Shown one piece after another: positions 1,551 to 36,655 of a stretch of 38,067 bases of DNA. The notes below the pieces were generated by a model. The model was not told the origin of the DNA. It was given only the letters and a program-made list of their open reading frames with translations, and did no database searches. The DNA lies in the IMG/VR virus record IMGVR_UViG_3300011013_000038, positions 1 to 38,067 of that record, one strand, 5' to 3'. Within the stretch, counting starts at the first letter, position 1; each line of letters begins with the position of its first letter. The position numbers were made by a program, and so were the translations under genes. The stretch comes from a virus.

Positions 1551-4010
1551 ATGGCCGAAAGAATAGTATCGCCAGGTGTATTTACCAATGAAAAAGACCA
1601 AAGCTTTTTACAGCGAGGTGTTAGTGAAATAGGAGCCTCGATAGTAGGTCCGACAATTAAAGGCCCGGCCTTAATTCCAACTAAAGTAAATTCATTTTCA
1701 GAATTTGAAGAAATATTTGGTTCATATACAGATGAATCATATGTTCCATTTACAGTACAAGAGTATTTAAAAAATGCTGGAGTAATGACAATTACAAGAT
1801 TGTTATACGAAGATGGATATAAATTAACAAATGGAGCATTGGCAGTTATAGCAGAATCAGCAAGTGTACAATACGTAACCCATTTATTACATCCAACAAT
1901 TCCAGTATCAACTGTTGGTAGTGACAATGTATTCGAATCTTCGTTATTATCAGATGGCGGTTCAGGAAGCTTCGCAATAAAAATATCAGGCTCATATGCT
2001 ACAGACACAAGCATACCAGGATATTCAGCATATTTATCAACAGGCTTTATTTCAGCCTCACTTATTAATACAGAAAATAACTACTTAAGTAAAGTATTTG
2101 GAAATAGCCCAAAAAGCGTAGATTATCCAGTATATGTACAATATGAAAATCAAAATGTATCTGGGTTGTTTAATAATCTAGGAGATGTCACTACAACGTT
2201 GGCAATAGTTGATAATTATGAATTTTTACAAGACTATCAATCTGCATCTACACCATGGATTACATCACAAAAAATAGGATCTACTCCAGTTAACTTGTTT
2301 AAATTCCATACATTATCACACGGTGATGTTGAAAATTATGATGTTAAAGTTGGTATTAGAGATATAAGAATAGATTCAGAAGTAGCAGACCCAAATGGAT
2401 ATGGTACATTTACAGTAGAAATACGAAGAGTTAATAATACAAATTTACCTAATTCACCATTTGATTCAGATGACACAGACAGAACCCCAGATATAGTAGA
2501 ATCATTTGTAGGATGTAATTTAGACCCAGATTCTCAGAACTATGTTGCAAGAAGAATAGGAGATCAATACAGAACTATCGATTCAACAGGTAAAATCTTT
2601 GATAATGGTGATTATCCAAATATATCTAAATATATAAGGATAGAAGTAACAGAAGGTGTTGGTGCTAAGACAGTTAATAAAACATTAGTACCATTTGGAT
2701 TTAGATCTTTAAATTCACCAATACCAGATGCATCAGGATCTGCAGGAAATTTAAATTTACAAGCAGTATCTTATAATACATCTCAGGTTATTAGTAGTGC
2801 ATATAATAGTAAAAATTATTTTGGATTTGATTATACAAATATACAAAATTTACAGTATTTAACCTCACTACCAACATCAGGATCTAATACAGGAAGTAAT
2901 GCTGATTTTTATTTAGGAGATATGGATCAAGATTCTGAAGCAAATTTCCCTTCAATTGCCGCACCATATTCTGCGTCATTGCAAGGAGCGTTAACAGGAT
3001 CAACGTTTACTGCCGATGTAGCATTAGCAACTAGAAAGTTTATGGTACCGGCTCAAGGTGGATTTGATGGAGCAAGACCAAATTTACCTAAATTAAGTGG
3101 TGCTAATATAAAGTCGACTAATACATTTGGATTTGATTGTAGTTCAGCAACATCAACTGGTACTAAAGCATATCAAAAAGCATTTGCAGCACTAAGCAAT
3201 ACAGATTATTATGATATGAACATGTTAATCACTCCTGGTATTGTACATAGATTACATAGTGCAGTTACTGCAGATGCTAGACAATTAGCAGAAGATAGAC
3301 AAGATACTTTCTATGTAATGGATACAAATGCATTAGCAGATAATATTGCAACCACTGTTTCAGAAGTAAATAGTTTAGACTCAAATTATACAGCAACATA
3401 TTTTCCATGGGTAAGAATTATAGACCCAGCAAAAAACAAACCAATGTGGGTACCACCATCAGTAGTAGTTCCAGGAGCATTATCATTTAATGATGCAAAT
3501 GCCGCACCTTGGTATGCACCTGCAGGTTTAAATAGAGGTGGGTTAACATCGGTAATTAATACATATGAAAAATTAACTCAATCAGATAGAGATGATTTAT
3601 ATGAAGCTAGAATTAATCCAATAGCAAACTTCCCTAATGAAGGAGTTGTAATTTGGGGACAAAAAACACTTCAAGCAAGGCCGTCTGCATTAGATAGAGT
3701 TAATGTCAGAAGATTATTAATTACGGTTAAGAAATTTATTGCATCATCTACGAGATATTTAGTGTTCGAACAAAATACAGATGCAACTAGAAATAGATTC
3801 TTAAACATAGTTAATCCATATTTAGAAAGTGTTAGAGCACAACAAGGACTAACTGCATTTAGAGTAGTAATGGATAGCACAAATAATACACCAGATTTAA
3901 TTGATCAAAATATATTGTATGGACAAGTATTTTTACAACCGACTAGAACTGCGGAATTTATTGTGTTAGATTTTAATATTCAACCAACGGGTGCATCATT
4001 CCCTGAATAA
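1551..4010 (+). CDS. 18: Contractile tail sheath protein (gp18-like)
   Basis: 819 residues; T4 gp18 is 659, so this sheath carries extra insertions in its middle. The N-terminus MAERIVSPGVFTNEKDQSFL is the usual sheath start. The C-terminal third has the conserved sheath core: RRLLITVKKFIASSTRYLVFEQN, a 'NPYLESVRAQQGL' helix, 'NNTPDLID' and the final strand EFIVLDFNIQPTGASFPE. In contractile tails the N- and C-terminal arms link subunits and the C-terminal core contracts around the tube. A TATTTATAAT box and a strong Shine-Dalgarno (ATAGGAGA) precede the ATG. The tube gene follows immediately, the classic sheath-tube order. The central region (about residues 100-450) is Ser/Gly/Asn-rich and probably surface-exposed. 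Confidence 0.95.
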   Translation: MAERIVSPGVFTNEKDQSFLQRGVSEIGASIVGPTIKGPALIPTKVNSFSEFEEIFGSYTDESYVPFTVQEYLKNAGVMTITRLLYEDGYKLTNGALAVIAESASVQYVTHLLHPTIPVSTVGSDNVFESSLLSDGGSGSFAIKISGSYATDTSIPGYSAYLSTGFISASLINTENNYLSKVFGNSPKSVDYPVYVQYENQNVSGLFNNLGDVTTTLAIVDNYEFLQDYQSASTPWITSQKIGSTPVNLFKFHTLSHGDVENYDVKVGIRDIRIDSEVADPNGYGTFTVEIRRVNNTNLPNSPFDSDDTDRTPDIVESFVGCNLDPDSQNYVARRIGDQYRTIDSTGKIFDNGDYPNISKYIRIEVTEGVGAKTVNKTLVPFGFRSLNSPIPDASGSAGNLNLQAVSYNTSQVISSAYNSKNYFGFDYTNIQNLQYLTSLPTSGSNTGSNADFYLGDMDQDSEANFPSIAAPYSASLQGALTGSTFTADVALATRKFMVPAQGGFDGARPNLPKLSGANIKSTNTFGFDCSSATSTGTKAYQKAFAALSNTDYYDMNMLITPGIVHRLHSAVTADARQLAEDRQDTFYVMDTNALADNIATTVSEVNSLDSNYTATYFPWVRIIDPAKNKPMWVPPSVVVPGALSFNDANAAPWYAPAGLNRGGLTSVINTYEKLTQSDRDDLYEARINPIANFPNEGVVIWGQKTLQARPSALDRVNVRRLLITVKKFIASSTRYLVFEQNTDATRNRFLNIVNPYLESVRAQQGLTAFRVVMDSTNNTPDLIDQNILYGQVFLQPTRTAEFIVLDFNIQPTGASFPE

Positions 4011-9674: not shown

Positions 9675-11726
9675 ATGGCATCTGGCGATATATTTTATTC
9701 AAGCGTAGATCCTAATTTACAAAAAGAATTAAACGCACGTGCAAACGCAGGGTTTACTAGTAGAACTAACAAAGATCTAGATTTTATGTTAGGTAAAATT
9801 GGCAATGTAGAAATACGAGCCTATACAGGAAATTCTCCAGATACACGTACAGTTATACCAATTGACGAATTTGGAGTATTAGGAGGAAGAGTTCCTATAA
9901 CAGCATCTTATTTGCCTACCGGTACAGGTGGATATCTAAGAGATGGATCTAGTTATAGAATACCACCGATAATAACATTAGCAGAAATTAATATTGGTGA
10001 CCATACAATGGGTTTGTTAAATAAAGCTACTGTTAATATAATAATTCCAGATCCAACAAGAGATTTTGATAACTTTGAAAAAATATGGTTTAGGCCTGGT
10101 CGACACGCTACTATTATTTTCGAATATCCGGATTCAGCAGTAATTACTAGTCCTGGATTATTGTCAGATGATACAATTCCAAGTGAAGAAAAATTAAAAG
10201 AACAATTTCCAAATGATACTATTGAAATTAGATCAACATTAAAAAAGATAAATCGTGTTAGGTTTGATGGATTAATAACATCATTTCAATTTTCATATCA
10301 ACAAGACGGAAGTGTTGAGTCTACTATATCATTAACTGGTACTAGTAATGTATATACAGATGTTTCTATGTTAATGCAAACTAATACAGAAGAAACTGGA
10401 TCTGCTAATACAGATAAAGACAAAAATACAGGAACTAAAACATTTTACAATGTATTAAAAAACAATGTTAATGATATAATCAACAAGAATAGTAATGACA
10501 ATAATATTACATATGGCGAAGTATTAGTTAATAATAAATCAGATCATGGAATAATATGGGGACCTAGATATAATGAAAAAGGATTTGGATTTGCAAGTTA
10601 TAATGAAAATGACAAACAAAATGAACTTAAGTATGTAACATTAGGATATTTAATTGATCAGTTAAATAAAAATATAACAAAAAAATTAAACTCTACCGTA
10701 CAGAATCCAGCAGTTATATGTAATGATGAAATATGTTTTAGTAATGTATATCCAGAATTAGTTTCTGCAGATCCTACTAAAATATTATTATGGCCTGGAA
10801 CAAATAATACTTCTGTTAACGAGTATAAATCATTGAATCCTAATGTTCTGAGTACTATAATTTGGTTAGGACAAGTTAATCCTATTTCGCAAGGATTCAT
10901 AAATAATTCTTTAGCATTTCCAAGTAGAATATATATTGAAATGCAAGTTATAAAACAAATCAATGAAAATACAAAAACATTGAATGACTTTTTAAAATCA
11001 ATTAGTGCAACAATATATGAATATACTGGAGGAGCTATTAATATGAACTTAATAACTCATCCTAAAGAACCAGATAAATTATTATATTATGATGCAAAAT
11101 ATCAAGGAAATAATAAATCAGCAGTACAAGAATTTGTAGTACCAATGTTTGTACAAACCAAAGTAGAAAAAAATCGAACACAAACTGTATTAGGTACAAT
11201 TGTTACTGATGTAAAAGTATCTTCGAAATTACCTGATAATATGAAAAATTTATCATATGTTTTAAATGAAGGCACAGAAATTTCTGAATCAGATATTGCT
11301 CCATTTGTTGCATATATGTATGCAGATGATGATCAAAAACAAAAGATTCTAGAACGATATAAACAAGATAATGAAAAATATTTGCGAGAGCTACAGGAAA
11401 CTAAATTTGAATTTTCAAAAGATCCAGAATCAGAACAAAATATAAATCGATTAAAAGGAGCATTAGTTAAATATATTCAATATCCAACTGATGATATTGA
11501 AAAATCAAATTTATTAAGTGCTCCCGTATATCCATTCGATGTAGAATTTACTATTGACGGAATTAACGGATTTAAATATGGTGATGTACTTGAAATTCCA
11601 ATATTACCAACTAGATATTCTGAACAAACAATATTTAGTGTTATTAACGTAGTTCATACTATTGACAGTACTGGGTTATGGAGTACTAAAATAAAATGTA
11701 TAATGAGACCTAGGATAACAAAATGA
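9675..11726 (+). CDS. Baseplate hub protein (gp27/GpD-type)
   Basis: 683 residues. The N-terminal 240 residues form a beta-rich domain (IRAYTGNSPDTRTVIPIDEF, then NIGDHTMGLLNKATVNIIIP, PGRHATIIFEYP, FDGLITSFQFSYQQDG). The last 70 residues (VEFTIDGINGFKYGDVLEIP and VINVVHTIDSTGLWSTKIKC) match the closing strand pattern of hub proteins of the gp27/GpD type, where a hydrophobic-x-His-x-Ile segment is followed by a Trp and a short tail. The middle is a long Asn/Lys-rich insertion. It is larger than T4 gp27 (391 residues). The stop overlaps the next start by 4 bases (ATGA). Confidence 0.6.
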   Translation: MASGDIFYSSVDPNLQKELNARANAGFTSRTNKDLDFMLGKIGNVEIRAYTGNSPDTRTVIPIDEFGVLGGRVPITASYLPTGTGGYLRDGSSYRIPPIITLAEINIGDHTMGLLNKATVNIIIPDPTRDFDNFEKIWFRPGRHATIIFEYPDSAVITSPGLLSDDTIPSEEKLKEQFPNDTIEIRSTLKKINRVRFDGLITSFQFSYQQDGSVESTISLTGTSNVYTDVSMLMQTNTEETGSANTDKDKNTGTKTFYNVLKNNVNDIINKNSNDNNITYGEVLVNNKSDHGIIWGPRYNEKGFGFASYNENDKQNELKYVTLGYLIDQLNKNITKKLNSTVQNPAVICNDEICFSNVYPELVSADPTKILLWPGTNNTSVNEYKSLNPNVLSTIIWLGQVNPISQGFINNSLAFPSRIYIEMQVIKQINENTKTLNDFLKSISATIYEYTGGAINMNLITHPKEPDKLLYYDAKYQGNNKSAVQEFVVPMFVQTKVEKNRTQTVLGTIVTDVKVSSKLPDNMKNLSYVLNEGTEISESDIAPFVAYMYADDDQKQKILERYKQDNEKYLRELQETKFEFSKDPESEQNINRLKGALVKYIQYPTDDIEKSNLLSAPVYPFDVEFTIDGINGFKYGDVLEIPILPTRYSEQTIFSVINVVHTIDSTGLWSTKIKCIMRPRITK

Positions 11727-12343
11727 TATTTCGGCAAAAAGTATATTACACCCTAGATGAAATTTCTGAAAATTTATATACAAGTGGGTCAGAATGGATG
11801 TTAACTGATAGTACTGAATATATCGGATTATATCACAAATATACTACTGGTGAAATTTATACACAACCTACATGGGACTTTTTTAAATCACAAGTTTTAA
11901 TTCCATACAAAGAACTAAATGTTGATAATAATGTATATAATGATTTAAAACCTGATATTAAAACCGAGTATAATTCAATACAAACATATTATCCAGAAAT
12001 TGGAATTCAAGAAAGATCTATTGGTTCGATAACAAGATATTTTATTAAGCGAGTAAACAGTAATTCAATTATTGAAATTAATAAACAGCAATTTGAAGAT
12101 TATAATTCTAAGAAAATAGACCCAAATATAAATGTAGCTGTTAGTTTAATGTGGTCAATTTCTGGTAAAGTAGATGATGTATTTCAAGGAAATGTATTAG
12201 AAAAAGGCGTTAAAACAAAAAATATAGAATCTATAAAACAAGCAGAAACAAAAATTCTAGGACTTTCTGCCAAATTAACAAATCTATTAGAATTTTACAC
12301 AGATACAGAATTTATAGTTCCCACTGACATCAATCCAAAATAA
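11723..12343 (+). CDS. Probable virion/baseplate protein of unknown function
   Basis: 206 residues, translationally coupled to the hub gene by a 4-base overlap. Visible features are an N-terminal aromatic-rich segment (VYYTLDEISENLYTSGSEWM), a TQPTWDFFKSQVLIPYKEL stretch and a helical C-terminal part (IKQAETKILGLSAKLTNLLE). No enzyme motif was found. As the last gene of the tail block it is probably a baseplate or tail-completion protein. Its 3' end runs into an inverted repeat and the promoter of the next gene. Confidence 0.6.
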   Translation: MIFRQKVYYTLDEISENLYTSGSEWMLTDSTEYIGLYHKYTTGEIYTQPTWDFFKSQVLIPYKELNVDNNVYNDLKPDIKTEYNSIQTYYPEIGIQERSIGSITRYFIKRVNSNSIIEINKQQFEDYNSKKIDPNINVAVSLMWSISGKVDDVFQGNVLEKGVKTKNIESIKQAETKILGLSAKLTNLLEFYTDTEFIVPTDINPK

Positions 12344-12383: not shown

Positions 12384-13706
12384 ATGATAGTTGATGATAA
12401 AGAAGAACTAGATGTAATATTCGATTACATGAAAGATAAAACGGTATTATTAGTACCAATACTTTCCGACCATAAATTACACCCAATCATAAATAATATA
12501 TCGTGTATATACATATATACAGAAGACGGCGTAGAGCGCATCATTCCCATGCAACATACCGAACAAATACGGGGCTTTAAAGACCAGTTAGCCCGCTTTC
12601 TCAACTTAGAATCTATCTTTGTCCATGACAAAAAGGTATGGTTACAAATGGGCGGTAATGATGCCGTATACGATGTCAAATCTTTGTGGTGGTATACGTA
12701 TAATGAGGCATATGATGAGAATTATTATTATACAAGTGCACATCATTTTTATTGGAGAAGACATACCAATTTAAATCATATTAATGCAGTAGTTCCATTA
12801 ATGCAACATTTAGAGATGTGTCAGAAAATTCGCAAGTATGCTTGGCCAATGATTATCAATTCAAAATTAACTACATCATACAATCAATTTAATTCTATAT
12901 ATCCAAAACTTTTTGCTGAAATTGAATCTAACGGGATGCAAGTTACTAGGTCGTTCAAAATGAATGATTTAATAACGGATGGTCGAGTTTATTCTCAATA
13001 TCACTATCATACAACAACAGGGAGGCCATCCAATGCATTCCGAGGATTCAACTTTGCAGCAATGAATAAAGAAGATGGTACAAGAGATGCATTTTGTAGC
13101 AGATTTGAAAATGGTGCATTAATTGAAATGGATTTTGATGCTTATCATATTAGACTGATAGCTAGGTTAATTGGATATGATTTACCAACCACATCAGTTC
13201 ATCAATATTTTGGTAAGCAATATTTTGGGAAAGAAGAATTGACAGATGAAGAATATGAAAAAAGTAAACAAATAACATTTAGATTGTTATATGGAGGAAT
13301 TGACAAAGAATTTTTAGGTATTCCATTTTTCGGAGAAGTAAATAAATATATAAGTGAACTTTGGGCTGAATGGAAAAAACAAGGAGTTATATATACTCCC
13401 GTTGAAAGAAGACCTATTAATTCAAGCACATTTCCAGATATGACAAAAAATAAATTGTTTAATTATTATTTACAAGCATTAGAAACTGAGTTTTCGGTTA
13501 GAAGAATGATGCAAGTACAAAACACATTAAAAGATTATAAAACCAAATTAATATTATATACTTATGACTCATTGTTATTTGATGTTCCAGTTACTGAGGC
13601 AAAAGAAGTATTAATTAAGGTTAAAAACATTCTCCAAGGCGGAGAATTTCCGGTTAAATGTAAAGTCGGAAATATTTATAGTAAAATGAATAATATATCG
13701 TTATGA
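12384..13706 (+). CDS. Compact family A DNA polymerase-like protein
   Basis: 440 residues with the palm/fingers motifs of DNA polymerase I. HTTTGRPSN is at 209-217. Motif A is MDFDAYHIRL with the catalytic Asp at 250. Motif B is KQITFRLLYG (Lys295, Phe299, Tyr303, Gly304). Motif C is LYTYDSLLF with Asp395. The Glu after the motif C Asp is replaced by Ser, and the motif B Arg is absent. The first 150 residues look like a reduced 3'-5' exonuclease domain: HDKKVWLQMGG and AVYDVKSLWW echo its helices, but the acidic metal ligands are not evident. Families of this size are far smaller than Pol I. The genome also has a complete family B polymerase at 27760, so this is probably an accessory or repair polymerase. 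A TTGGAT-17-TATTAT promoter ends 8 bp before the ATG and there is no Shine-Dalgarno. Confidence 0.8.
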   Translation: MIVDDKEELDVIFDYMKDKTVLLVPILSDHKLHPIINNISCIYIYTEDGVERIIPMQHTEQIRGFKDQLARFLNLESIFVHDKKVWLQMGGNDAVYDVKSLWWYTYNEAYDENYYYTSAHHFYWRRHTNLNHINAVVPLMQHLEMCQKIRKYAWPMIINSKLTTSYNQFNSIYPKLFAEIESNGMQVTRSFKMNDLITDGRVYSQYHYHTTTGRPSNAFRGFNFAAMNKEDGTRDAFCSRFENGALIEMDFDAYHIRLIARLIGYDLPTTSVHQYFGKQYFGKEELTDEEYEKSKQITFRLLYGGIDKEFLGIPFFGEVNKYISELWAEWKKQGVIYTPVERRPINSSTFPDMTKNKLFNYYLQALETEFSVRRMMQVQNTLKDYKTKLILYTYDSLLFDVPVTEAKEVLIKVKNILQGGEFPVKCKVGNIYSKMNNISL

Positions 13707-14782
13707 ATAAAGTAAACGAAATTTTAACAGAGTGGACATATCAGTTAGAATCAGGATACCCCAAAAAAGATGAAGATTATATAGTGTTGCAAAATATATT
13801 GCAAGAATCCACTGATTTTGATCAATCCAAAATACACCGAATAGTTGATAGAGCTAGAGGGTTACAGGAGGATGAAGTACCAAATGAAGTCATTAATGAT
13901 GATACTCCAGAAAATATACCAGACAGTGAAGTAAATGTTGTCGTAACCGAATTGATGTCTGTTTTTAGAAATATAGCTAACAAATATGCAGAATACATAA
14001 GAGTAATTAATTCATTTGCGCCAGGATCGGTAGGATCAATGTCTGAATCAATATTGGCAGGCCTGATAAATAAATATACAAACGCAACTGCAGAAGCAGT
14101 TGGAATGAAAAATGAATTAACTGATATAACTGTAGGTACACATCATATATCTTTGAAGGCGTCATTAGGATCTAAAGTAATACCATTGTCTGTAGATACA
14201 AAAAATTGGCCCATTGGGCAATCAGCAGAAAGTAAAACTAAATGGTATGAAAAATATCAAAAATATGCAGCTGGATCTGAAGGCGACAAAACAGAACCAT
14301 ATGGTGATAAGTCTATTAAATTTCTTCAAACAATCAACCAAATGAAAAACAGTGAAGAGTCAGAAATATATAATATAATTATAAACAGACTAATAGCTAT
14401 AGCAAAAAAATTATCCGACGTCAATTTTATTTGGATAGAAAAAGAAATTCCACAATCAAGTAAAATATTGAAAAGTTTAACTATACACGTACGAGAATAT
14501 GAATATGAAAATATCATGAAAGAATTTTTAAATTCATATTTATATTTAAGTCCAAAATCTTGGGGATTGGTTGGAGAGGATGGTACTATAATTATAGGTG
14601 CCGAAACAGGTAAAGAATTAAATATACACCCTAGGTTTATTAAAAAAACAGGTACGGAAGAAAATACACAAAGAATTGAATTTCCAATACCAACTTTTGA
14701 TCGAATCGAAAAACAAAAAGAAGTTACTGACGCAATGTTAAATTCATTAGAACAAATATCTCAGACTTTATATGGAAAGTAA
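13703..14782 (+). CDS. Unknown protein with a possible restriction-nuclease-like core
   Basis: 359 residues, coupled to the polymerase-like gene by a 4-base overlap. The N-terminus (NEILTEWTYQLESGYPKKDE) resembles a short lead domain common on marine T4-like phage proteins and contains a Leu-x-Glu that could be a prohead-protease site. The segment from Glu115 through LTDITV (Asp141) to HISLKAS (Lys152) has the Glu, Asp and x-Lys spacing of a PD-(D/E)xK nuclease variant with Ser in place of the usual acidic residue. That reading is weak. The C-terminal half is helical then beta, with no known motif. Confidence 0.6.
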   Translation: MNKVNEILTEWTYQLESGYPKKDEDYIVLQNILQESTDFDQSKIHRIVDRARGLQEDEVPNEVINDDTPENIPDSEVNVVVTELMSVFRNIANKYAEYIRVINSFAPGSVGSMSESILAGLINKYTNATAEAVGMKNELTDITVGTHHISLKASLGSKVIPLSVDTKNWPIGQSAESKTKWYEKYQKYAAGSEGDKTEPYGDKSIKFLQTINQMKNSEESEIYNIIINRLIAIAKKLSDVNFIWIEKEIPQSSKILKSLTIHVREYEYENIMKEFLNSYLYLSPKSWGLVGEDGTIIIGAETGKELNIHPRFIKKTGTEENTQRIEFPIPTFDRIEKQKEVTDAMLNSLEQISQTLYGK

Positions 14783-14785
14783 ATA

Positions 14786-15169
14786 GTGAAAACACAACTT
14801 CTTTGCACCTTCGCTCATAGAAATAATTTAGATATAGTAACAGAATATATCAAACAAAATTTTACAATACCAGAGCATAGAATATTTGTATTTTCAAATG
14901 ATGAAATAAGAAGTGAATTGTATTGTACATTTAATGCCGAGGATAATGGATTTCGAGGAAAAAACACAATTAGTATACACCGAAAGAAAGAGACAAATAC
15001 ACTTTATACGGTTAATGCATTAAACGAAGTAATAATGAATTTAAACAATGGAATACTAGATAAAAGCATGTTATTGCCCTGGGAGAATTTTGAAAATTCA
15101 TTCTTGTTAACTACCGAGAATGGGTATAAACGAGTTGAACTAGTATTTGTGAAAAGAATTAGTTTTTAA
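14786..15169 (+). CDS. Conserved phage-type protein of unknown function (GTG start)
   Basis: 127 residues beginning at GTG, 3 bases after the preceding stop. The pattern is QLLCTFAHRNNLDIVTEYI, then IFVFSNDEIRSELYCTFN, NTISIHRKKETNTLYTVNAL, NEVIMNLNNGILD, and a final YKRVELVFVKRI strand. It is a compact alpha/beta protein of a type I associate with T4-like phages, without a known role. No catalytic motif was seen. The close spacing suggests expression with the two genes before it. Confidence 0.65.
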   Translation: MKTQLLCTFAHRNNLDIVTEYIKQNFTIPEHRIFVFSNDEIRSELYCTFNAEDNGFRGKNTISIHRKKETNTLYTVNALNEVIMNLNNGILDKSMLLPWENFENSFLLTTENGYKRVELVFVKRISF

Positions 15170-16768: not shown

Positions 16769-17542
16769 ATGAGTTTAGATTTAGACGCCATTAAGGCAAA
16801 ACTTACACAATTAAACAAGACAGACGACAGAAGAAATAATCTTTGGAAACCTGAACCAGGTAAGCAAACGATTCGAATTGTACCTTATGTACATCGCAAA
16901 GAAAACCCTTTCCTAGAAATGTATTTTCATTATGATATCGCAAAGCGTAGTATGCTTTCGCCTATCACATTTGGCAATGCAGATCCTGTAGTAGAATTTG
17001 CTGAAAAGCTTAAGAAAACAGGTGATAAAGACGAATGGATAATGGGTAGAAAAATCGAGCCAAAGATGAGAACTTATGTTCCTGTTATTGTTAGAGGTAA
17101 AGAATCTGAAGGAGTTAAATTTTGGGGGTTTGGAAAAACCGTATACTCAGAATTGCTTTCAATAATTTCAGACCCAGACTACGGTGATATTACCGACCTA
17201 ATGAATGGTAGAGATATTACAGTAGAATTTACACCAGCAGAAGGCTCTGAGAGGTTTCCAAAAACTTCAATCAGAGTGAAGCCAAATACTTCGGCAGCAA
17301 CTGAAGATAAAGGCATTGCTGAAAAAGTCATGAATCAATTAAAGATTACAGACTTATTTCCCGAGCCAACTTATGAAGAACTAGAACAGGCACTAGCAGA
17401 TTGGATGAATCCAGAAAATGCTGATTCAGATACTACGACACCTTCAACAAATGGTGAAGCAAAATCTGAAACTACTACTAAAACTGAACCTAAAAAGTCA
17501 GCTGATGTAGCAACTGCATTTAATGATTTATTTAATAAATAG
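16769..17542 (+). CDS. 32: Single-stranded DNA-binding protein (gp32-like)
   Basis: 257 residues, somewhat shorter than T4 gp32 (301). The N-terminal basic segment (KAKLTQLNKTDDRRNNLWKP) corresponds to the self-association domain. The core has the gp32 pattern QTIRIVPYVHRKENPFLEMY, KPEPGK, and KFWGFGKTVYSELLSIISDP. The C-terminus is Ser/Thr/acidic and ends in AFNDLFNK, the protein-contact tail. The protein contains no cysteine, so the zinc site of T4 gp32 is missing. It coats single-stranded DNA and recruits UvsX, helicase loader and polymerase. A strong AAAGGAG ribosome site and a plausible promoter (TTAACA-16-TATAAT) lie upstream. Confidence 0.9.
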   Translation: MSLDLDAIKAKLTQLNKTDDRRNNLWKPEPGKQTIRIVPYVHRKENPFLEMYFHYDIAKRSMLSPITFGNADPVVEFAEKLKKTGDKDEWIMGRKIEPKMRTYVPVIVRGKESEGVKFWGFGKTVYSELLSIISDPDYGDITDLMNGRDITVEFTPAEGSERFPKTSIRVKPNTSAATEDKGIAEKVMNQLKITDLFPEPTYEELEQALADWMNPENADSDTTTPSTNGEAKSETTTKTEPKKSADVATAFNDLFNK

Positions 17543-17551
17543 GAGTCTACT

Positions 17552-18709
17552 ATGGCAAAGAAAAAGAGTGAACTGGAAGACTCGTTGGCCGCAACATTGG
17601 CCGAGAGTATCAATAAACAGTTCAAGGGTCAAAATTACAAAACTGCGTTCTTTCTAGATGGAGATGAAGATGCACCTACAAATGTGCATGAATGGATTTC
17701 ATCTGGGTGTTCAATGCTAGATTTGGCTATTTCAAATAAACCAAATGGAGGTTTTCCTGTTGGTAGAATTACCGAAATAACAGGACTAGAAGCTTCAGGT
17801 AAATCATTACTTGCAGCCCACACCTTAGCAGAAACACAAAAGAGAGGCGGATTAGCAGTTTATATTGACACTGAATCTGCAACTAGCTCTGAATTCTTAA
17901 CAGCAATAGGAGTTGATTTAAAATCAATGCTATATGTTCCAATGGAAACAGTTGAGGAGATATTTGAAACTATCGAAACAATTGTAGACAATGTAAGACA
18001 ATCAGACAAAGATCGATTGGTAACAATCGTGGTAGATTCAATAATGGGAGCATCAACAAAAATCGAAATGGATGCTGAATATGATAAAGATGGTTATGCA
18101 ACATCAAAATCTATTATTCTATCAAAAGCTATGCGTAAGGTAACTAACTGGATAGCAAGAGAAAGAATATGTTTAATATTCACAAATCAATTGAGAACAA
18201 AGTTAGGTGTTAGCTTTGGAGACCCATGGACGACAGCGGGAGGTAAGGCATTACCATTCCACTCATCAGTAAGATTAAGGCTGAAGTCGTTAGGACAAAT
18301 CAAAGCAAAAGTAAATGGTGTAGAACAAGTGGTAGGAATAAAAACCAAGGTCACAATCGTGAAAAACAGAATGGGACCTCCACATCGTTCTATTAATTAT
18401 GATATATATTTCGATTCAGGAATTGATAATTATGGAGGGTGGTTAAATATCATGAAAGACTTCAAACTAGTAAAACAAGGCGGAGCCTGGTATACTTATG
18501 AAGACGTAGATGTTAACACCGGAGAGGTTTTAGAAGAAATAAAATTTCAATCTAAAGACTTCGCTGAAAAAATAATTAACAAACCAGATATCCATGATCG
18601 ATTATACAATCGAATTTGCGAAGCATATATCTTCAAATATGTAGCCGGTATAGACGGTGGCATTGATGATGTAGTCGTAGATGAAGAAATAATAAATGAA
18701 GAAGGATAA
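17552..18709 (+). CDS. uvsX: RecA/UvsX recombinase
   Basis: 385 residues. Walker A GLEASGKS is at 78-85. Walker B is in VTIVVDSIMG. TNQLRTKLGVSFGDPWTTAGG is the RecA-type L2/ATP-sensing region, followed by GGKALPFHSSVRLRL. The C-terminus is acidic (DDVVVDEEIINEEG). It forms filaments on gp32-coated single strands for strand exchange and recombination-dependent replication. It lies 9 bp after gp32 with a GGAG site, and its stop overlaps the next start (TAATG). Confidence 0.95.
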   Translation: MAKKKSELEDSLAATLAESINKQFKGQNYKTAFFLDGDEDAPTNVHEWISSGCSMLDLAISNKPNGGFPVGRITEITGLEASGKSLLAAHTLAETQKRGGLAVYIDTESATSSEFLTAIGVDLKSMLYVPMETVEEIFETIETIVDNVRQSDKDRLVTIVVDSIMGASTKIEMDAEYDKDGYATSKSIILSKAMRKVTNWIARERICLIFTNQLRTKLGVSFGDPWTTAGGKALPFHSSVRLRLKSLGQIKAKVNGVEQVVGIKTKVTIVKNRMGPPHRSINYDIYFDSGIDNYGGWLNIMKDFKLVKQGGAWYTYEDVDVNTGEVLEEIKFQSKDFAEKIINKPDIHDRLYNRICEAYIFKYVAGIDGGIDDVVVDEEIINEEG

Positions 18710-19782
18710 TGAGTAAGTATCAAGAATTATTTAACCAGTTACAAAAAGAAAAGGCAAATAGGCCATCAGGCGTCAATGATCACATCATGATATTTGATGG
18801 TCTAAACACCTTTATTAGAGCATTCTCAGCAACTCCTTCATCAAATGAAGATGGCGATCACGTAGGAGGAATTACCGGATTTTTATATAGTATAGGAAAA
18901 TGTGTAAGAGACTTCAAACCAAGTCGTTGCATTGTAGTATTTGATGGAGTTGGTGGCTCTAGGAGAAGAAGAAAGATAAATAAAGATTATAAAGCAAATC
19001 GAATTAATAAAACAAAATTAAGAAGACACGACCATTACGATATAACCGTCGAACAAGAACAACAAGAAATGCGCCGTCAATTTAGCAGAGTGGTTTCATA
19101 TTTAGATTGTTTGCCTGTTACATTTTTAGCGATGGACGGAATTGAGGCAGACGATACTATATCATATATAGTTGGGATGTTTGACGAAGATATATTAAAG
19201 CCAAAAGAAGAACAAAGTAAATTTACAATTGTTTCAACAGACAGAGATTTTTATCAATTAATAGATAATAGAATACGAGTATGGTCTCCTATCAAAAAGA
19301 AAATGTATACCACAGAAACGGTACTAGAAGAATTTGGAGTACATCCAGCAAATTATGTAATGTATAGAACATTTACAGGCGACAAATCGGATAATATACA
19401 AGGTGTTAAAGGAATAGGACCAAAGACATTATTAAAACACATTCCTGATTTAGCATTATCATTGGATTATACGCCGGCAGATCTTCGGGGAGATTGTATA
19501 GAAAAATTAGATGAATCTAAAACATATCAAAAGATGTTAGACAATATAGATTTAATTGAAGAAAATTGGGACTTAATGAATTTAAATATTTTAAATTTTC
19601 CAGCACAAACAAAATCAAATATTCGCAACATTATAAATGCTCCAATAACCACATTAAATAAAGTCGAATTTCGCAGATTATTTATGGAAGATAAAATGTG
19701 GTCGATTATGAAAAATATGCCAGATTGGTTGAACAATACGTGGCTTTCTTTAAGTGCCTTCGCACAACAAACACATAAATAG
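18709..19782 (+). CDS. rnh: 5'-3' exonuclease / flap endonuclease (T4 RNase H-like)
   Basis: 357 residues, a size similar to T4 RNase H (305). It has the PIN/FEN signatures: MIFDGLNTFIRAF near the N-terminus, GITGFLYSIGK, VVFDGVGGSRRRRKINKDYK, DGIEADDTISY, STDRDFYQL, and the helix-hairpin motif TGDKSDNIQGVKGIGPKTLL. The conserved Asp residues of the two-metal site are present. It removes RNA primers and flaps during lagging-strand synthesis. It overlaps uvsX by one base. Confidence 0.92.
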   Translation: MSKYQELFNQLQKEKANRPSGVNDHIMIFDGLNTFIRAFSATPSSNEDGDHVGGITGFLYSIGKCVRDFKPSRCIVVFDGVGGSRRRRKINKDYKANRINKTKLRRHDHYDITVEQEQQEMRRQFSRVVSYLDCLPVTFLAMDGIEADDTISYIVGMFDEDILKPKEEQSKFTIVSTDRDFYQLIDNRIRVWSPIKKKMYTTETVLEEFGVHPANYVMYRTFTGDKSDNIQGVKGIGPKTLLKHIPDLALSLDYTPADLRGDCIEKLDESKTYQKMLDNIDLIEENWDLMNLNILNFPAQTKSNIRNIINAPITTLNKVEFRRLFMEDKMWSIMKNMPDWLNNTWLSLSAFAQQTHK

Positions 19783-19818: not shown

Positions 19819-21174
19819 ATGACAGATAAATTAAGTGAGTATGGTTGGTCGTTTCAAGTAAAAGTGCTTGCGGCTATGTTTATTGACCGCTCATTTTTAC
19901 AACAAATTGCAGATATTATACAACCCGAATATTTTGAGTCAGATGCAAATAATTGGGTATTAGATGTTATATTAGATCATTTCAGAGAATATAAAACTCC
20001 ACCAAGTAAAGACGTATTAAAAGTAAAAGTAACAGAAATTACTGATGATGTATTTAAAACAGCAGTTTTAGAACAATTAAAGGATATATTTCGGTATATG
20101 GAGTCAGATGACTTAACGTTTGTAAAAGACGAAATATTAAAATTCTGTAAAAATCAAGAAATTAAGCGAGCAATTATGGATTCTGTTAATTTATTGCAAA
20201 TGGGCAATTATGATGAAATAAAAAGCAAAATTGATTCTGCTATGAAGGCAGGTGCTGATACTGATATTGGACATGAATATAAAAAAGAGGTAGTAGCAAG
20301 ATATACAGACTCTGCACGGGATACTATTAGTACCGGATGGGATGTAATTGACGATTTAATGGATGGTGGATTAGGAAAAGGAGAATTAGGTGTAGTAATG
20401 GCACCAGCAGGAATTGGTAAATCTTGGTTGCTTATTAATATTGGAGCAAATGCAGTAAAACAAGGAAAAACAGTTATACATTATACATTAGAATTAAATG
20501 ACAATTATGTAGGACAGAGATATGATAGTGTAATAACAGGAATTGCAGCACAAAATTTAAAAAATTACACAGATGACATTGAAGAAAAATTAGAAACATT
20601 ACCTGGGGAATTAATCATAAAATATTACCCAACAAAATCTACAGGAGTAATGGGAATTAAAGCCCATATTGAAAAAACTGTAATGTTAGGAAATAATCCA
20701 GATTTAGTAATAGTAGATTATGGTGATTTATTAAAAGTAAATAATAAAAAAGATAAACACGAAGCATTAGAAGAATTATATGAAGAAATGCGGGGAATGG
20801 CAGGAGAATATGAAATACCAGTATGGACTGCGTCCCAAGCAGGAAGAGCGGCACTAGAAATGGATATAATTGAAGCAGACAAAATTGCATCATCATATGG
20901 TAAAGTAATGGTTGCTGATTTCTTAATGTCACTTGCAAGAAAAGTAGAAGACAAATTATCTGGAACAGGTAGAGGCCATGTTATAAAAAATAGATTTGGG
21001 CCTGATGGAATTACATTGCCAAGCAAGATAAATACCAATAATGGACAATTTCAATTTTTCGAACCACAAACATCTCAAGGAAAACAAACGACACAAACAA
21101 TGAAGAGTGGTGAGAATATTTTAAAACAAAGTTTAGCACAAAAATTTAAAGATCTGGGCGGAAGTTTGGGTTGA
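19819..21174 (+). CDS. 41: Replicative DnaB-type helicase (gp41-like)
   Basis: 451 residues; T4 gp41 is 475. An N-terminal helical domain is followed by a RecA-like motor with Walker A APAGIGKS (195-202) and Walker B LVIVDYGDLL (about 296-305). Then come VWTASQAGRAALE and KNRFGPDGITLP, the latter with the Arg finger region. It would unwind the fork as a hexamer with a primase that is not in this window. A TTGGAT-17-TATAAT promoter ends only 5 bp before the ATG and no Shine-Dalgarno is present. A terminator follows the gene. Confidence 0.93.
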   Translation: MTDKLSEYGWSFQVKVLAAMFIDRSFLQQIADIIQPEYFESDANNWVLDVILDHFREYKTPPSKDVLKVKVTEITDDVFKTAVLEQLKDIFRYMESDDLTFVKDEILKFCKNQEIKRAIMDSVNLLQMGNYDEIKSKIDSAMKAGADTDIGHEYKKEVVARYTDSARDTISTGWDVIDDLMDGGLGKGELGVVMAPAGIGKSWLLINIGANAVKQGKTVIHYTLELNDNYVGQRYDSVITGIAAQNLKNYTDDIEEKLETLPGELIIKYYPTKSTGVMGIKAHIEKTVMLGNNPDLVIVDYGDLLKVNNKKDKHEALEELYEEMRGMAGEYEIPVWTASQAGRAALEMDIIEADKIASSYGKVMVADFLMSLARKVEDKLSGTGRGHVIKNRFGPDGITLPSKINTNNGQFQFFEPQTSQGKQTTQTMKSGENILKQSLAQKFKDLGGSLG

Positions 21175-27759: not shown

Positions 27760-30270
27760 ATGTATCAAAATATAGCATTTCACAAAAAGACAAACACAAT
27801 GCACGTGTGGGATGACGAATTAGGTCATCAAACAATAAATTTCCAACCATATGGATACATTCCAGACGAAAATGGAAAATATGTTTCATTAAATGGACAA
27901 AAATTAAGTAAAGTTTCTGGAAATCACAAGGATAATAGGAATGCATATGAATCTGACTTAAATGAAGAAGTTAGAACATTAATAGACTTATATTATGATT
28001 CGGATAAAGTATCAACCGGACATTCTGATTTCTTTTTTGACATAGAAACAGCAAAAGACGAATATGGATATTCAACTCCAGAAGATGTTCGAACCCAAAT
28101 AACTTCCATAGCATATTATGATAAAACAGGTAAAGACCGAAGAGTTCTAGTTTTAGATGAACGTAAACGACTATCTGATGATATTATTTATGGAGATAAT
28201 GTAACTATTGAATCTTTTGGTACTGAAGCTGATATGTTAATTAAATTTATTAATTACTTTTCAGCAATACAGCCAACAGTAATTACAGGGTGGAACACAG
28301 ATGGATATGATATTCCATATTTAATAAATCGCATTAAAAAAGTATTAGGTCCAAAGTCAGTAAAAAAATTATCTCCAGTAGGAATTGTAGAATGGAATAA
28401 ACATCGTGAAAAATATAAAATATTTGGGGTATCAAGTTTAGATTACTTGCCACTCTATAAAGCACAGCCAGGAAATGAAAGACCAAATTACCGATTAGAC
28501 ACAATAGCTAAGTTTGAGCTAGGCAAAGGTAAAATTGAATATGATGGAGATTTAGATTTATTATTTGAAACAGATATTAATAAATTTATAGAATATAATA
28601 TGACTGATGTCGATCTTGTTTATGAATTAGACGAAAAGTTACAGTTAATTAATTTAGCAAGAACAATATGCCACAAAGGACATGTTCCTTATGAAGATGT
28701 ATACTATTCATCGAAATACCTAGATGGCGCAGCAATAGTAGATTTAAAAAGAAATGGATTGGTAGCTCCAAATAAACAATTTAGGTTTGTCGAAGAAGAA
28801 CGACAAGATAAATTAGCAGGAGCATATGTAATGCCACCAACACCAGGATTATATAAATGGATCTATGACTTAGATTTAACTTCACTATATCCTAGTATAA
28901 TAATGAGTCTTAATATTTCGCCAGAAACAAAAGTAGGCGTAATTTCCAATTGGAAACAAGAATCATTATTAAGCAAAGACCCAGTTAGTGTAAAAATTAA
29001 TGGACAGCCAATTAATGATGTAAAATCATGGTTAATTGAGAATAAATTTACAGTTGCAAGTAATGGGGTAGTATATGATACTAGAGGTGTTGGATTTTTA
29101 CCTAGAATATTAAAAAAGTGGTTTGCCGAACGTGTTGAGTTTAAAACTGAAAGAGATAAACACAAAGTAGGATCTGAAAAATATAAATTTTACGATGCAG
29201 AGCAATTAGCACAAAAAACACTACTTAATAAGTTTTATGGTGTATTAGGATTAAAAACATTTAGGTTTCATGACTTAGACAATGCAGGAGCAATAACAGC
29301 CACCGGCCAGAGTGTAATTAAGTTTTCTGCAAAGGTCATTAATGCTTATTATAAAAAAGAAACAGGAAAAAACAATTTTAGAAATGCAACAGGCAAAAGA
29401 GTAGATTTTTCATTCTATACAGATACAGATTCAACATTTGTTTCTAGTTTGCCAATTATAGAAAAGCGATATCCTAATTTTGATGAAAATAATGAACAAT
29501 TTATGATTGAGAAAACAAATGAAGTTGCATCAGAGATACAAAATCATGTAAATGAAATGTATGATCAATATGCATTATATTTTCACAACACAAAAGAACA
29601 TCGGTTTCAGATTAAACAAGAATATGTAGCAAAATCAGGAGTGTGGATAGCAAAAAAGAGGTATGCCCAATGGGTAATATTCAAAGAAGGAAAATCCACC
29701 GATAAATTAGATATAAAGGGCTTAGATGTAGTAAGATCATCTTTCCCTGTTGATTTCAAAGAAATAATGGAAGAGACTCTTTGGTATATACTAAAAGAAA
29801 GATCAAAATTAGATACAACTGATATGATAATGGAATTTAAGGATAAAATACAAACATCTGATATTTTAAATGTAATGAACAACACCGGTGTAAAAGAGAT
29901 TAGCAAATACACTAAAAAAAGGAAGCCGTTTTCTGGTTACCTTAAGGGAACACCAGTTCATGTTAAATCTTCTATTAATTATAATGATATGTTACATCAT
30001 TTAGGCATTGATAAAAAATTCGCAGCTATTAATGATGGAGATAAAATTAAATGGGCATATCTTAAGACAAATGCAATGGGGTTTGATAGTATTGCATTGA
30101 GGGGATATGAAGACCCAAGACAATTAACAGAATTTGTTGAAAGATATATCGATAGAAATAAAATATTTGATAGTGCACTGAGAGGCAAAATAGATGATTT
30201 TTATTTAGCAATGAATTGGGATAACTTACCAGAAAATAATAATGTAAATAAGTTCTTTTCATTTGGATAA
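27760..30270 (+). CDS. 43: Family B replicative DNA polymerase (gp43-like)
   Basis: 836 residues; T4 gp43 is 898. Exonuclease motif FFFDIETA is near residue 91, followed by TVITGWNTDGYDIPYL (Exo II) and YNMTDVDLVYELD (Exo III). Palm motifs are DLTSLYPSIIMSLN near 372, KTLLNKFYGVLG, and YTDTDST near 553. Proofreading and polymerase sites both look intact. It copies the phage genome with the clamp at 33697. The start abuts the preceding stop. The last codons and stop (TTTGGATAA) carry the -35 box of the next promoter. Confidence 0.96.
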   Translation: MYQNIAFHKKTNTMHVWDDELGHQTINFQPYGYIPDENGKYVSLNGQKLSKVSGNHKDNRNAYESDLNEEVRTLIDLYYDSDKVSTGHSDFFFDIETAKDEYGYSTPEDVRTQITSIAYYDKTGKDRRVLVLDERKRLSDDIIYGDNVTIESFGTEADMLIKFINYFSAIQPTVITGWNTDGYDIPYLINRIKKVLGPKSVKKLSPVGIVEWNKHREKYKIFGVSSLDYLPLYKAQPGNERPNYRLDTIAKFELGKGKIEYDGDLDLLFETDINKFIEYNMTDVDLVYELDEKLQLINLARTICHKGHVPYEDVYYSSKYLDGAAIVDLKRNGLVAPNKQFRFVEEERQDKLAGAYVMPPTPGLYKWIYDLDLTSLYPSIIMSLNISPETKVGVISNWKQESLLSKDPVSVKINGQPINDVKSWLIENKFTVASNGVVYDTRGVGFLPRILKKWFAERVEFKTERDKHKVGSEKYKFYDAEQLAQKTLLNKFYGVLGLKTFRFHDLDNAGAITATGQSVIKFSAKVINAYYKKETGKNNFRNATGKRVDFSFYTDTDSTFVSSLPIIEKRYPNFDENNEQFMIEKTNEVASEIQNHVNEMYDQYALYFHNTKEHRFQIKQEYVAKSGVWIAKKRYAQWVIFKEGKSTDKLDIKGLDVVRSSFPVDFKEIMEETLWYILKERSKLDTTDMIMEFKDKIQTSDILNVMNNTGVKEISKYTKKRKPFSGYLKGTPVHVKSSINYNDMLHHLGIDKKFAAINDGDKIKWAYLKTNAMGFDSIALRGYEDPRQLTEFVERYIDRNKIFDSALRGKIDDFYLAMNWDNLPENNNVNKFFSFG

Positions 30271-34842: not shown

Positions 34843-35769
34843 ATGTTTGGAGTAACTGAAAATACATTGTGGGTCGAATCATTTAGGCCGGGAACCTTAG
34901 ACGGATATATTGGAAATGAACATGTTATACAAAAAGTAAAGATATTTATTGAAAATGGAGATATTCCACACCTATTATTCTATGGTACTGCTGGTACAGG
35001 CAAAACTACATTAGCAAAAATAATTGCTAATTCAGTAGATGCAGATTTAATGTATGTTAATGCATCTGATGAAAATTCAGTAGATGCTGTAAGAGATAAG
35101 ATTAAAAGATATGCTAGCACTGTAGGATTTAAAAGATGGAAGATAGTAATATTAGATGAAGCAGACTATTTAACACCAAATGCCCAAGCAGCATTACGGA
35201 ATTTGATGGAAACATATAGTAAGACAACTAGGTTTATATTAACATGTAATTATGTGGAAAAAATTATAGACCCGATACAAAGTAGATGTCAGACATTTGG
35301 TATAACGCCACCAGATAAATCTGTAGTAGCTCAGCGGTTAGTTGATGTTTTAAATGAAAAACAAGTTGAATACGATGTTAATGATATTGTAGCAATTATT
35401 AATTCTAGTTATCCAGATATACGAAGAGCAATTAATAGCGCACAAAGTCACGTAGTAAAAGGAAAGTTAGTTTTAGACAAACAAAGTGTTGTACAATCTA
35501 ATTATATGACAGAAGTATTGGAGATATTAAAAAACAAAAAAGATAAAAAACAAGCATTTCAAAAAATAAGACAAATAATTGCAGATAGTAAAGTAAAAGA
35601 CTTTACACCATTATATACATTTTTATATGACAATTTAGATGAATTTGCAACAGGCAAAATTGCATCAGTAATATTAATTATTGCAGAATCACAATATACT
35701 GATTCACACGTTGTAGATAAAGAAATTAATATAATGGCAATGTTTGTAAAATTAATGAACGAAATATAA
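34843..35769 (+). CDS. 44: Clamp loader large subunit (gp44-like)
   Basis: 308 residues; T4 gp44 is 319. AAA+ motifs are Walker A GTAGTGKTT (48-56), Walker B ILDEADYL with Asp105/Glu106, and SRCQTF (the Arg-finger motif). An N-terminal ESFRPGTLDGYIGNEH leads, and a helical collar domain closes. It loads gp45 on DNA together with the gp62-like protein downstream. It has no strong ribosome site and probably relies on coupling to dut. Confidence 0.95.
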   Translation: MFGVTENTLWVESFRPGTLDGYIGNEHVIQKVKIFIENGDIPHLLFYGTAGTGKTTLAKIIANSVDADLMYVNASDENSVDAVRDKIKRYASTVGFKRWKIVILDEADYLTPNAQAALRNLMETYSKTTRFILTCNYVEKIIDPIQSRCQTFGITPPDKSVVAQRLVDVLNEKQVEYDVNDIVAIINSSYPDIRRAINSAQSHVVKGKLVLDKQSVVQSNYMTEVLEILKNKKDKKQAFQKIRQIIADSKVKDFTPLYTFLYDNLDEFATGKIASVILIIAESQYTDSHVVDKEINIMAMFVKLMNEI

Positions 35770-36000: not shown

Positions 36001-36212
36001 TGGGAGTACCATACCCAAAAGTACCGGTAGTATTAGTATTTAAAACATCTAATAGGTCTAATGCAAAAACTAAAATGAAAGTTTTTAAAAATAAAAATAT
36101 AGATGTTGTCAATGAGAAGAAAATGCCAGGAGTGCCAGAAAAGTCAATAATATTGGAACTAGGTGTTGGAACTAAATTTGAAGAATTATGGAGAAAGAAA
36201 TATAATATATAA
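36000..36212 (+). CDS. Small basic protein between clamp loader subunits
   Basis: 70 residues (MGVPYPKVPVVLVFKTSNRS ...), with a hydrophobic strand at 8-14, a lysine-rich middle and an ELGVGTKFEELWRKKY helix at the end. It is coupled at both ends by one-base overlaps (TAATG). No family was recognised. Its place in the replication operon suggests a supporting role, nothing more. Confidence 0.6.
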   Translation: MGVPYPKVPVVLVFKTSNRSNAKTKMKVFKNKNIDVVNEKKMPGVPEKSIILELGVGTKFEELWRKKYNI

Positions 36213-36655
36213 TGGCAAAAAAAGGCGCAACTATATTTGATTTTATCAATGGCATAACACATCAAAAGAAAGAGTGGCATTCTTATACAGAATCAGACCA
36301 AAAACGATTTGCACCGTACATAGTTAATCGTTGGCTTTCAATGAGAGTGGAATTAATTGATTTAATCAATGAGTTACAGAAGTATACAATAGGAGTATTA
36401 TCTCCTAGAGAAACTTATCGTTTATATCATGGTTTTTTACCAACAAATAAAACCTTCGCTAAGTACGTAAAAGGAAAGAAGGAAGATAAGTTTGACAAAC
36501 AATTGATTTCACAAGTTGCTGATCATTACAAAATAAGTAAAAGTGAAGCAATCGATTATGTTGAATTGATGGATAAAAATAGTTGTGCCAACTTGCTTAC
36601 AATGTACGGATATAAAGATTCAGATAAAAAGAAAATGTTAAAAGGAAAGAAATAA
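36212..36655 (+). CDS. 62: Clamp loader small subunit (gp62-like)
   Basis: 147 residues; T4 gp62 is 187. The central pattern is FAPYIVNRWLSMRVELIDLI, LSPRETYRLYHGFLP, TFAKYVKGKK and 'DHYKISKSEAIDYVEL'. This is the same order as in gp62 proteins of marine T4-like phages: a 'VNR-x-LS' helix, a basic R/K-FxK segment and a C-terminal 'Y-x-x-S-x-x-(K/E)A' helix. It lies three genes after gp44, where gp62 is expected. Similarity is moderate and recognised by pattern only. Confidence 0.65.
   Translation: MAKKGATIFDFINGITHQKKEWHSYTESDQKRFAPYIVNRWLSMRVELIDLINELQKYTIGVLSPRETYRLYHGFLPTNKTFAKYVKGKKEDKFDKQLISQVADHYKISKSEAIDYVELMDKNSCANLLTMYGYKDSDKKKMLKGKK

Follow-up and report, generated by a model that had tools for sequence, protein, structure and literature searches.

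A divPolA1-type family A DNA polymerase, predicted to lack a thumb and a proofreading site, beside the recombination and replication genes of a T4-like phage

The window (the whole linear IMG/VR record IMGVR_UViG_3300011013_000038, 38,067 nucleotides) belongs to a T4-like myophage. Its left part carries the genes for tail sheath and baseplate. The tail block is followed by a divPolA1 gene and then by genes for a gp32-like single-strand DNA-binding protein, UvsX, a FEN-type exonuclease and a DnaB/gp41 helicase. A 7-deazaguanine gene set comes next, and a family B polymerase and clamp-loader genes lie at the right. The place of divPolA1 is constant, between the tail block and the block of ssb, recombinase, exonuclease and helicase. 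The genes relevant here are:

11723-12343, + strand: p206, constant upstream neighbour and final gene of the tail block (locus comparison)
12384-13706, + strand: divPolA1-type family A DNA polymerase, 440 aa (Pfam DNA_pol_A, AlphaFold2 model, Bst Pol I fold, homology to immuto divPolA1)
13703-14782, + strand: p359, fast-evolving, overlapping the polymerase stop codon, present in the window-like group only (locus and dN/dS comparison)
14786-15169, + strand: p127, small conserved protein of no known family, candidate partner (locus co-occurrence, AlphaFold2)
16769-17542, + strand: single-strand DNA-binding protein (gp32-like)
17552-18709, + strand: UvsX-like recombinase
18709-19782, + strand: 5'-3' exonuclease (FEN / T4 RNase H type)
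19819-21174, + strand: DnaB-like replicative helicase (gp41-like)
27760-30270, + strand: gp43-like family B replicase (DNA_pol_B match at 5.2e-38; an exonuclease domain was matched as well)
34843-35769, + strand: clamp-loader AAA ATPase (gp44-like)
36212-36655, + strand: clamp-loader small subunit (gp62-like)

Among relatives, p359 proteins are 24-79% identical, against 63-98% for the neighbouring proteins, and no match to p359 was found in 50,697 phage records.

The polymerase gene starts with ATG and has the same coordinates as in the initial annotation, which had proposed a second, family A polymerase in a phage with a family B replicase and had named a profile search and structure prediction as checks. 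The proposal was borne out by the reading frame, the profile match and the fold, together with the replicase gene at 27760-30270. The Pfam DNA_pol_A model matched the protein above its cut-off (E = 4.6e-13; 49.3 bits, cut-off 34.3), and PHROG_17 'DNA polymerase' also matched (7.8e-12). Scores against the bacterial DNA polymerase I equivalogs NCBIfam polA and PRK05755 were far below their thresholds (33.7 bits vs 720 and 24.5 vs 600, respectively). The gene is under purifying selection, with dN lower than dS in every pair compared (for example, dN 0.014 vs dS 0.093 in the pair with L002).

A described relative is encoded by the first gene of record MW353176, of the cultured Flavobacterium phage immuto (33% identity over 92% of the query, E 6e-59). 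The window protein is a member of divPolA1, a kind already known from Yutin et al. 2024 (Virol J 21:200; PMC11348598), who named it in 14 phages including immuto. According to the available text of that paper, the thumb of divPolA1 is truncated, its exonuclease aspartates are replaced and its palm residues conserved; replication genes lie downstream, and the phages also encode a regular polymerase, which may be of family A, B or C. All of these features were found again in the window protein or its relatives. In the literature searched, the name occurs only in Yutin et al. 2024 and its preprint, and a search on 'thumbless' polymerases returned no papers. Beyond what the available text of PMC11348598 reports, three features are new: a far wider occurrence, an invariant His at the steric gate, and the constant neighbour p127; neither the His gate nor a partner gene is mentioned in that text.

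In IMG/VR, relatives were found in 251 stretches with the window protein as query, in 312 with the immuto protein and in at least 588 with an alignment. The polymerase is far commoner than the 14 phages in the available text of PMC11348598 indicate. Among named phages, matches spanning most of the protein were confined to six records: four of immuto, one of Microcystis phage Mel-JY01 (190 kb, described as complete) and the 484-kb LR756508. A scan seeded with the LR756508 protein found no relatives.

The main replicase of these phages varies. Among 25 records with divPolA1, 14 encode a family B polymerase, 10 encode a family A polymerase of about 777 aa, none encodes both, and one (a 114-kb fragment) shows neither. 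A role of divPolA1 as the main replicase was rejected, as one of the two other polymerases is present in 24 of 25 records. The gene is kept with either type of replicase and is therefore accessory, surviving replicase swapping.

The long enzyme of Immutovirus (QQO91989, 777 aa; MW353176.1 37854-40187) adjoins groES/groEL and replaces the family B enzyme, a swap within the clade. It too is a family A enzyme from a phage with divPolA1, but it is a standard replicase, in which the exonuclease motif (YDTET) is present and the thumb interval is far longer. In LR756508.1 (260623-266900) the family B polymerase lies in separate frames of 1022 and 625 aa, several kb apart, possibly owing to an intein, an intron or a split gene.

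The AlphaFold2 model of the 440-aa protein, built with 61 aligned relatives, is a confident Pol I fold (mean pLDDT 93.4), on which the polymerase motifs superpose. Klenow ranked first in Foldseek (2.8e-21), and VIA-align superposed the model on Bst Pol I with a Z of 28.6 and an rmsd of 3.3 over 410 of 440 residues (span 1-436). All fold matches listed were DNA polymerases; the single-subunit RNA polymerases of T7 and mitochondria were not among the matches listed. Within the gene the following parts were placed:

12384-12863, + strand: N-terminal domain (about aa 1-160) with a degenerate 3'-5' exonuclease fold from which the DEDD carboxylates are missing (alignment to the Pol I large fragment from residue 1; no conserved carboxylate set)
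12945-12989, + strand: thumb deletion point (about aa 188-202; E181-Y206 interval, family vs Klenow)
13131-13154, + strand: motif A, DFDAYHIR (aa 250-257), with catalytic D250 and with H255 at the Glu710 steric-gate position (Klenow and family alignments)
13266-13295, + strand: motif B, KQITFRLLYG (aa 295-304), with Y291 at the Arg754 position (Klenow and family alignments)
13563-13571, + strand: motif C, Tyr-Asp-Ser (aa 394-396), with catalytic D395 (Klenow and family alignments)

The alignment to Pol I begins at residue 1, so the N-terminal exonuclease-fold domain is still present. Its catalytic site appears to be gone. In 203 full-length relatives the acid-rich N-terminal columns are 4, 60, 67, 82, 97 and 111, and none of these falls at exonuclease motif 1 (DxE, at the end of the strand aa 21-27) or motif 3 (in the helix from about aa 139), as placed by eye from the alignment. 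The DEDD site therefore cannot form and proofreading is lost, in agreement with the initial annotation, which had noted an apparent lack of the metal ligands, and with the exonuclease inactivation reported for the family in the available text of PMC11348598. An hhalign comparison with the long immuto Pol A family gave a weak alignment of the palm only, too shallow for mapping the exonuclease domain.

The part that has shrunk most is the thumb. A profile of the family aligns with Klenow in two pieces, one covering the IERNG segment before the thumb and the other everything from just before the TGR motif. The interval from E181 to Y206 is 15-33 residues in the 203 relatives vs about 118 in Klenow, and a thumb of roughly 85-100 residues is therefore absent from the whole family. 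The initial annotation overlooked this predicted loss and described the N-terminal domain as reduced. The protein is indeed compact, through the missing thumb and not mainly through its N-terminal domain.

In spite of these losses, the residues of motifs A, B and C of Pol I are recognisable, and the catalytic residues of palm and fingers are invariant or nearly so in the 203 relatives, down to 27% identity (D250, D395, K295, F299, Y303, Q364, R214 and H273). Both D250 and D395 occur in 203/203. The positions equivalent to Klenow D705, D882, F762, R668 and Q849 do not vary, and K758, Y766 and H734 each have their equivalent in 202 (the lone exception at K758 is an undetermined residue in the sequence).

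The large fragments of E. coli, Bst and Taq Pol I thus share with the window protein the fold and the three motifs, while the window protein differs in the missing thumb and exonuclease ligands and at four active-site positions. The first is Glu710, where His stands in all 203 relatives, a replacement apparent from the alignments and overlooked in the initial annotation. The Arg754 position is Tyr in 180 relatives, Arg in 22 and Met in one; Tyr291 of the window protein accounts for the loss of the motif B Arg that had been noticed earlier. His881 is replaced by Tyr throughout, and Glu883 by Ser or Ala. The Ser after the motif C Asp was read correctly in the initial annotation, and is common among phage Pol A enzymes (HDS in Alsa_1, CRP-212, CaptainRex and Troll). 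Since the changes at the sugar gate and at Arg754 are conserved, the enzyme may use something other than an ordinary dNTP as its substrate.

Another divergent second family A polymerase, divPolA2 (barbavirus type, AUR84708), also lacks a standard thumb and occurs in phages with PolB. It differs in having Glu at the gate (DFKAFE) and another N-terminal domain, described as unrelated in the available text of PMC11348598. The divPolA1 profile did not match AUR84708 (E 0.23).

Taken together, the sequence and model suggest that divPolA1 is probably a non-proofreading family A polymerase with an intact catalytic site, extra to the main replicase, and used for distributive gap filling or repair within the replication and recombination module. 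The Pol I thumb grips the duplex, and thumb loss should therefore give short, distributive synthesis. Without it, the enzyme would hold DNA weakly and make only short stretches, to fill gaps or to extend the recombination intermediates that UvsX, gp32 and the FEN-type exonuclease, whose genes lie just downstream, would produce. A partner might help it to engage DNA, p127 being the best guess. With a catalytic site but neither a proofreading site nor a thumb, such an enzyme would show the minimum for family A synthesis. The family, present in hundreds of phage contigs, would offer a natural test of the roles of the steric gate and the thumb, with p127 as a concrete partner candidate.

Repair or translesion use, both raised in the initial annotation, is possible. 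The nearest rival to gap filling is a damage-tolerance polymerase: an open, low-grip, non-proofreading enzyme which copies damaged templates that the replicase cannot pass. The lack of an exonuclease site and a thumb, the altered nucleotide pocket and the position beside UvsX and gp32 would all suit such an enzyme. However, no sequence feature favours lesions over gaps, and we regard this explanation as rather unlikely.

The His gate raises a further alternative. In Pol I, Glu710 acts as the gate against rNTPs (PMC13228545), and Glu is retained at this position in Klenow and in six phage family A enzymes with which the family was compared, among them divPolA2 and the long polymerase of immuto. 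Its loss might admit rNTPs, making divPolA1 a second primer-maker or a transcriptase-like enzyme that synthesises RNA or mixed RNA/DNA. This is improbable: a DnaG-type primase is encoded separately in 15/19 records, including those of Mel-JY01, immuto and LR756508, while the Phe at the 762 position and the equivalents of His734 and Lys758 are still DNA polymerase-like. On account of this separate primase, a role of divPolA1 as a primase substitute was also rejected.

The unusual active-site changes and the loss of both thumb and exonuclease site could also be expected of a catalytically retired or non-polymerase protein in which the fold serves as a scaffold. That is very unlikely, as the metal-binding Asp residues and the dNTP-binding Lys, Phe, Tyr and Gln remain invariant or nearly so at 27% identity.

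The initial annotation had also suggested the copying of modified, deazaguanine-containing bases. QueD was used as the marker of this pathway (the TGT model, which misses the DpdA annotated in immuto, is not sensitive enough for phage DpdA) and was found in 16/19 records. A polymerase dedicated to copying or repairing 7-deazaguanine-modified DNA would fit the pathway's presence in the window and most relatives, but it is the least credible explanation, as Mel-JY01 and LR756508 keep the gene with no QueD match in their records and co-occurrence elsewhere follows from common descent. With a separate primase present and queD missing from two relatives, divPolA1 is neither a primase nor tied to deazaguanine.

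The neighbour considered as a partner is p127. It lies downstream of divPolA1 and before gp32 in 86/86 loci with at least 6 kb of downstream sequence (37/37, 31/31 and 18/18 in three groups). In a scan seeded with p127 only, divPolA1 was present in 27/27 loci with at least 4.8 kb upstream. The other genes between the polymerase and gp32 are variable, which favours p127 as a partner without proving it. The control p206 was found in the same six named-phage records only, as was p127, and the linkage may therefore be mere synteny of one clade. For this reason p127 was rejected as a proven partner.

The AlphaFold2 model of p127 has a pLDDT of 96. Foldseek detected no fold match in the PDB at E <= 0.001, the best Z (6.0) being within the range of chance arrangements. 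No match was found in Pfam, NCBIfam or PADLOC, and PHROG matches were weak (best E 0.014). An HRK-rich stretch (HRKKETNTLYTVNALN) is strongly conserved, and p127 could be a nucleic-acid-binding protein. More speculatively, divPolA1 and p127 might form a split polymerase in which p127 acts as a thumb in trans and the His gate gives a substrate choice unlike that of known family A polymerases, for example rNTPs at gaps or recombination intermediates; we consider this unlikely.

The window also contains a candidate late promoter, TATTTATA, found 23-33 nt before the start codons of eight genes on the + strand, six of them in the tail block (positions 100, 668, 1518, 4027, 4647, 5655, 13673 and 15174). 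Eight of the 12 window copies are so placed, vs 0.22 expected from a shifted control. In the structural region of phage immuto (L087) the figure is 9/14. T4-type TATAAATA late promoters are not enriched in the window. No copy of TATTTATA stands before the polymerase gene, and transcripts of the late tail operon could extend into it; this suits early replication less well. A 170-aa reading frame (130-642) opens with the N-terminal ~50 residues of the tail sheath protein (1551-4010) and has a different sequence thereafter. The shared start reads MAE..SPGV....DQSFLQ....GA.IVGPT.KGP; the N-terminal arm of the sheath is here joined to another domain.
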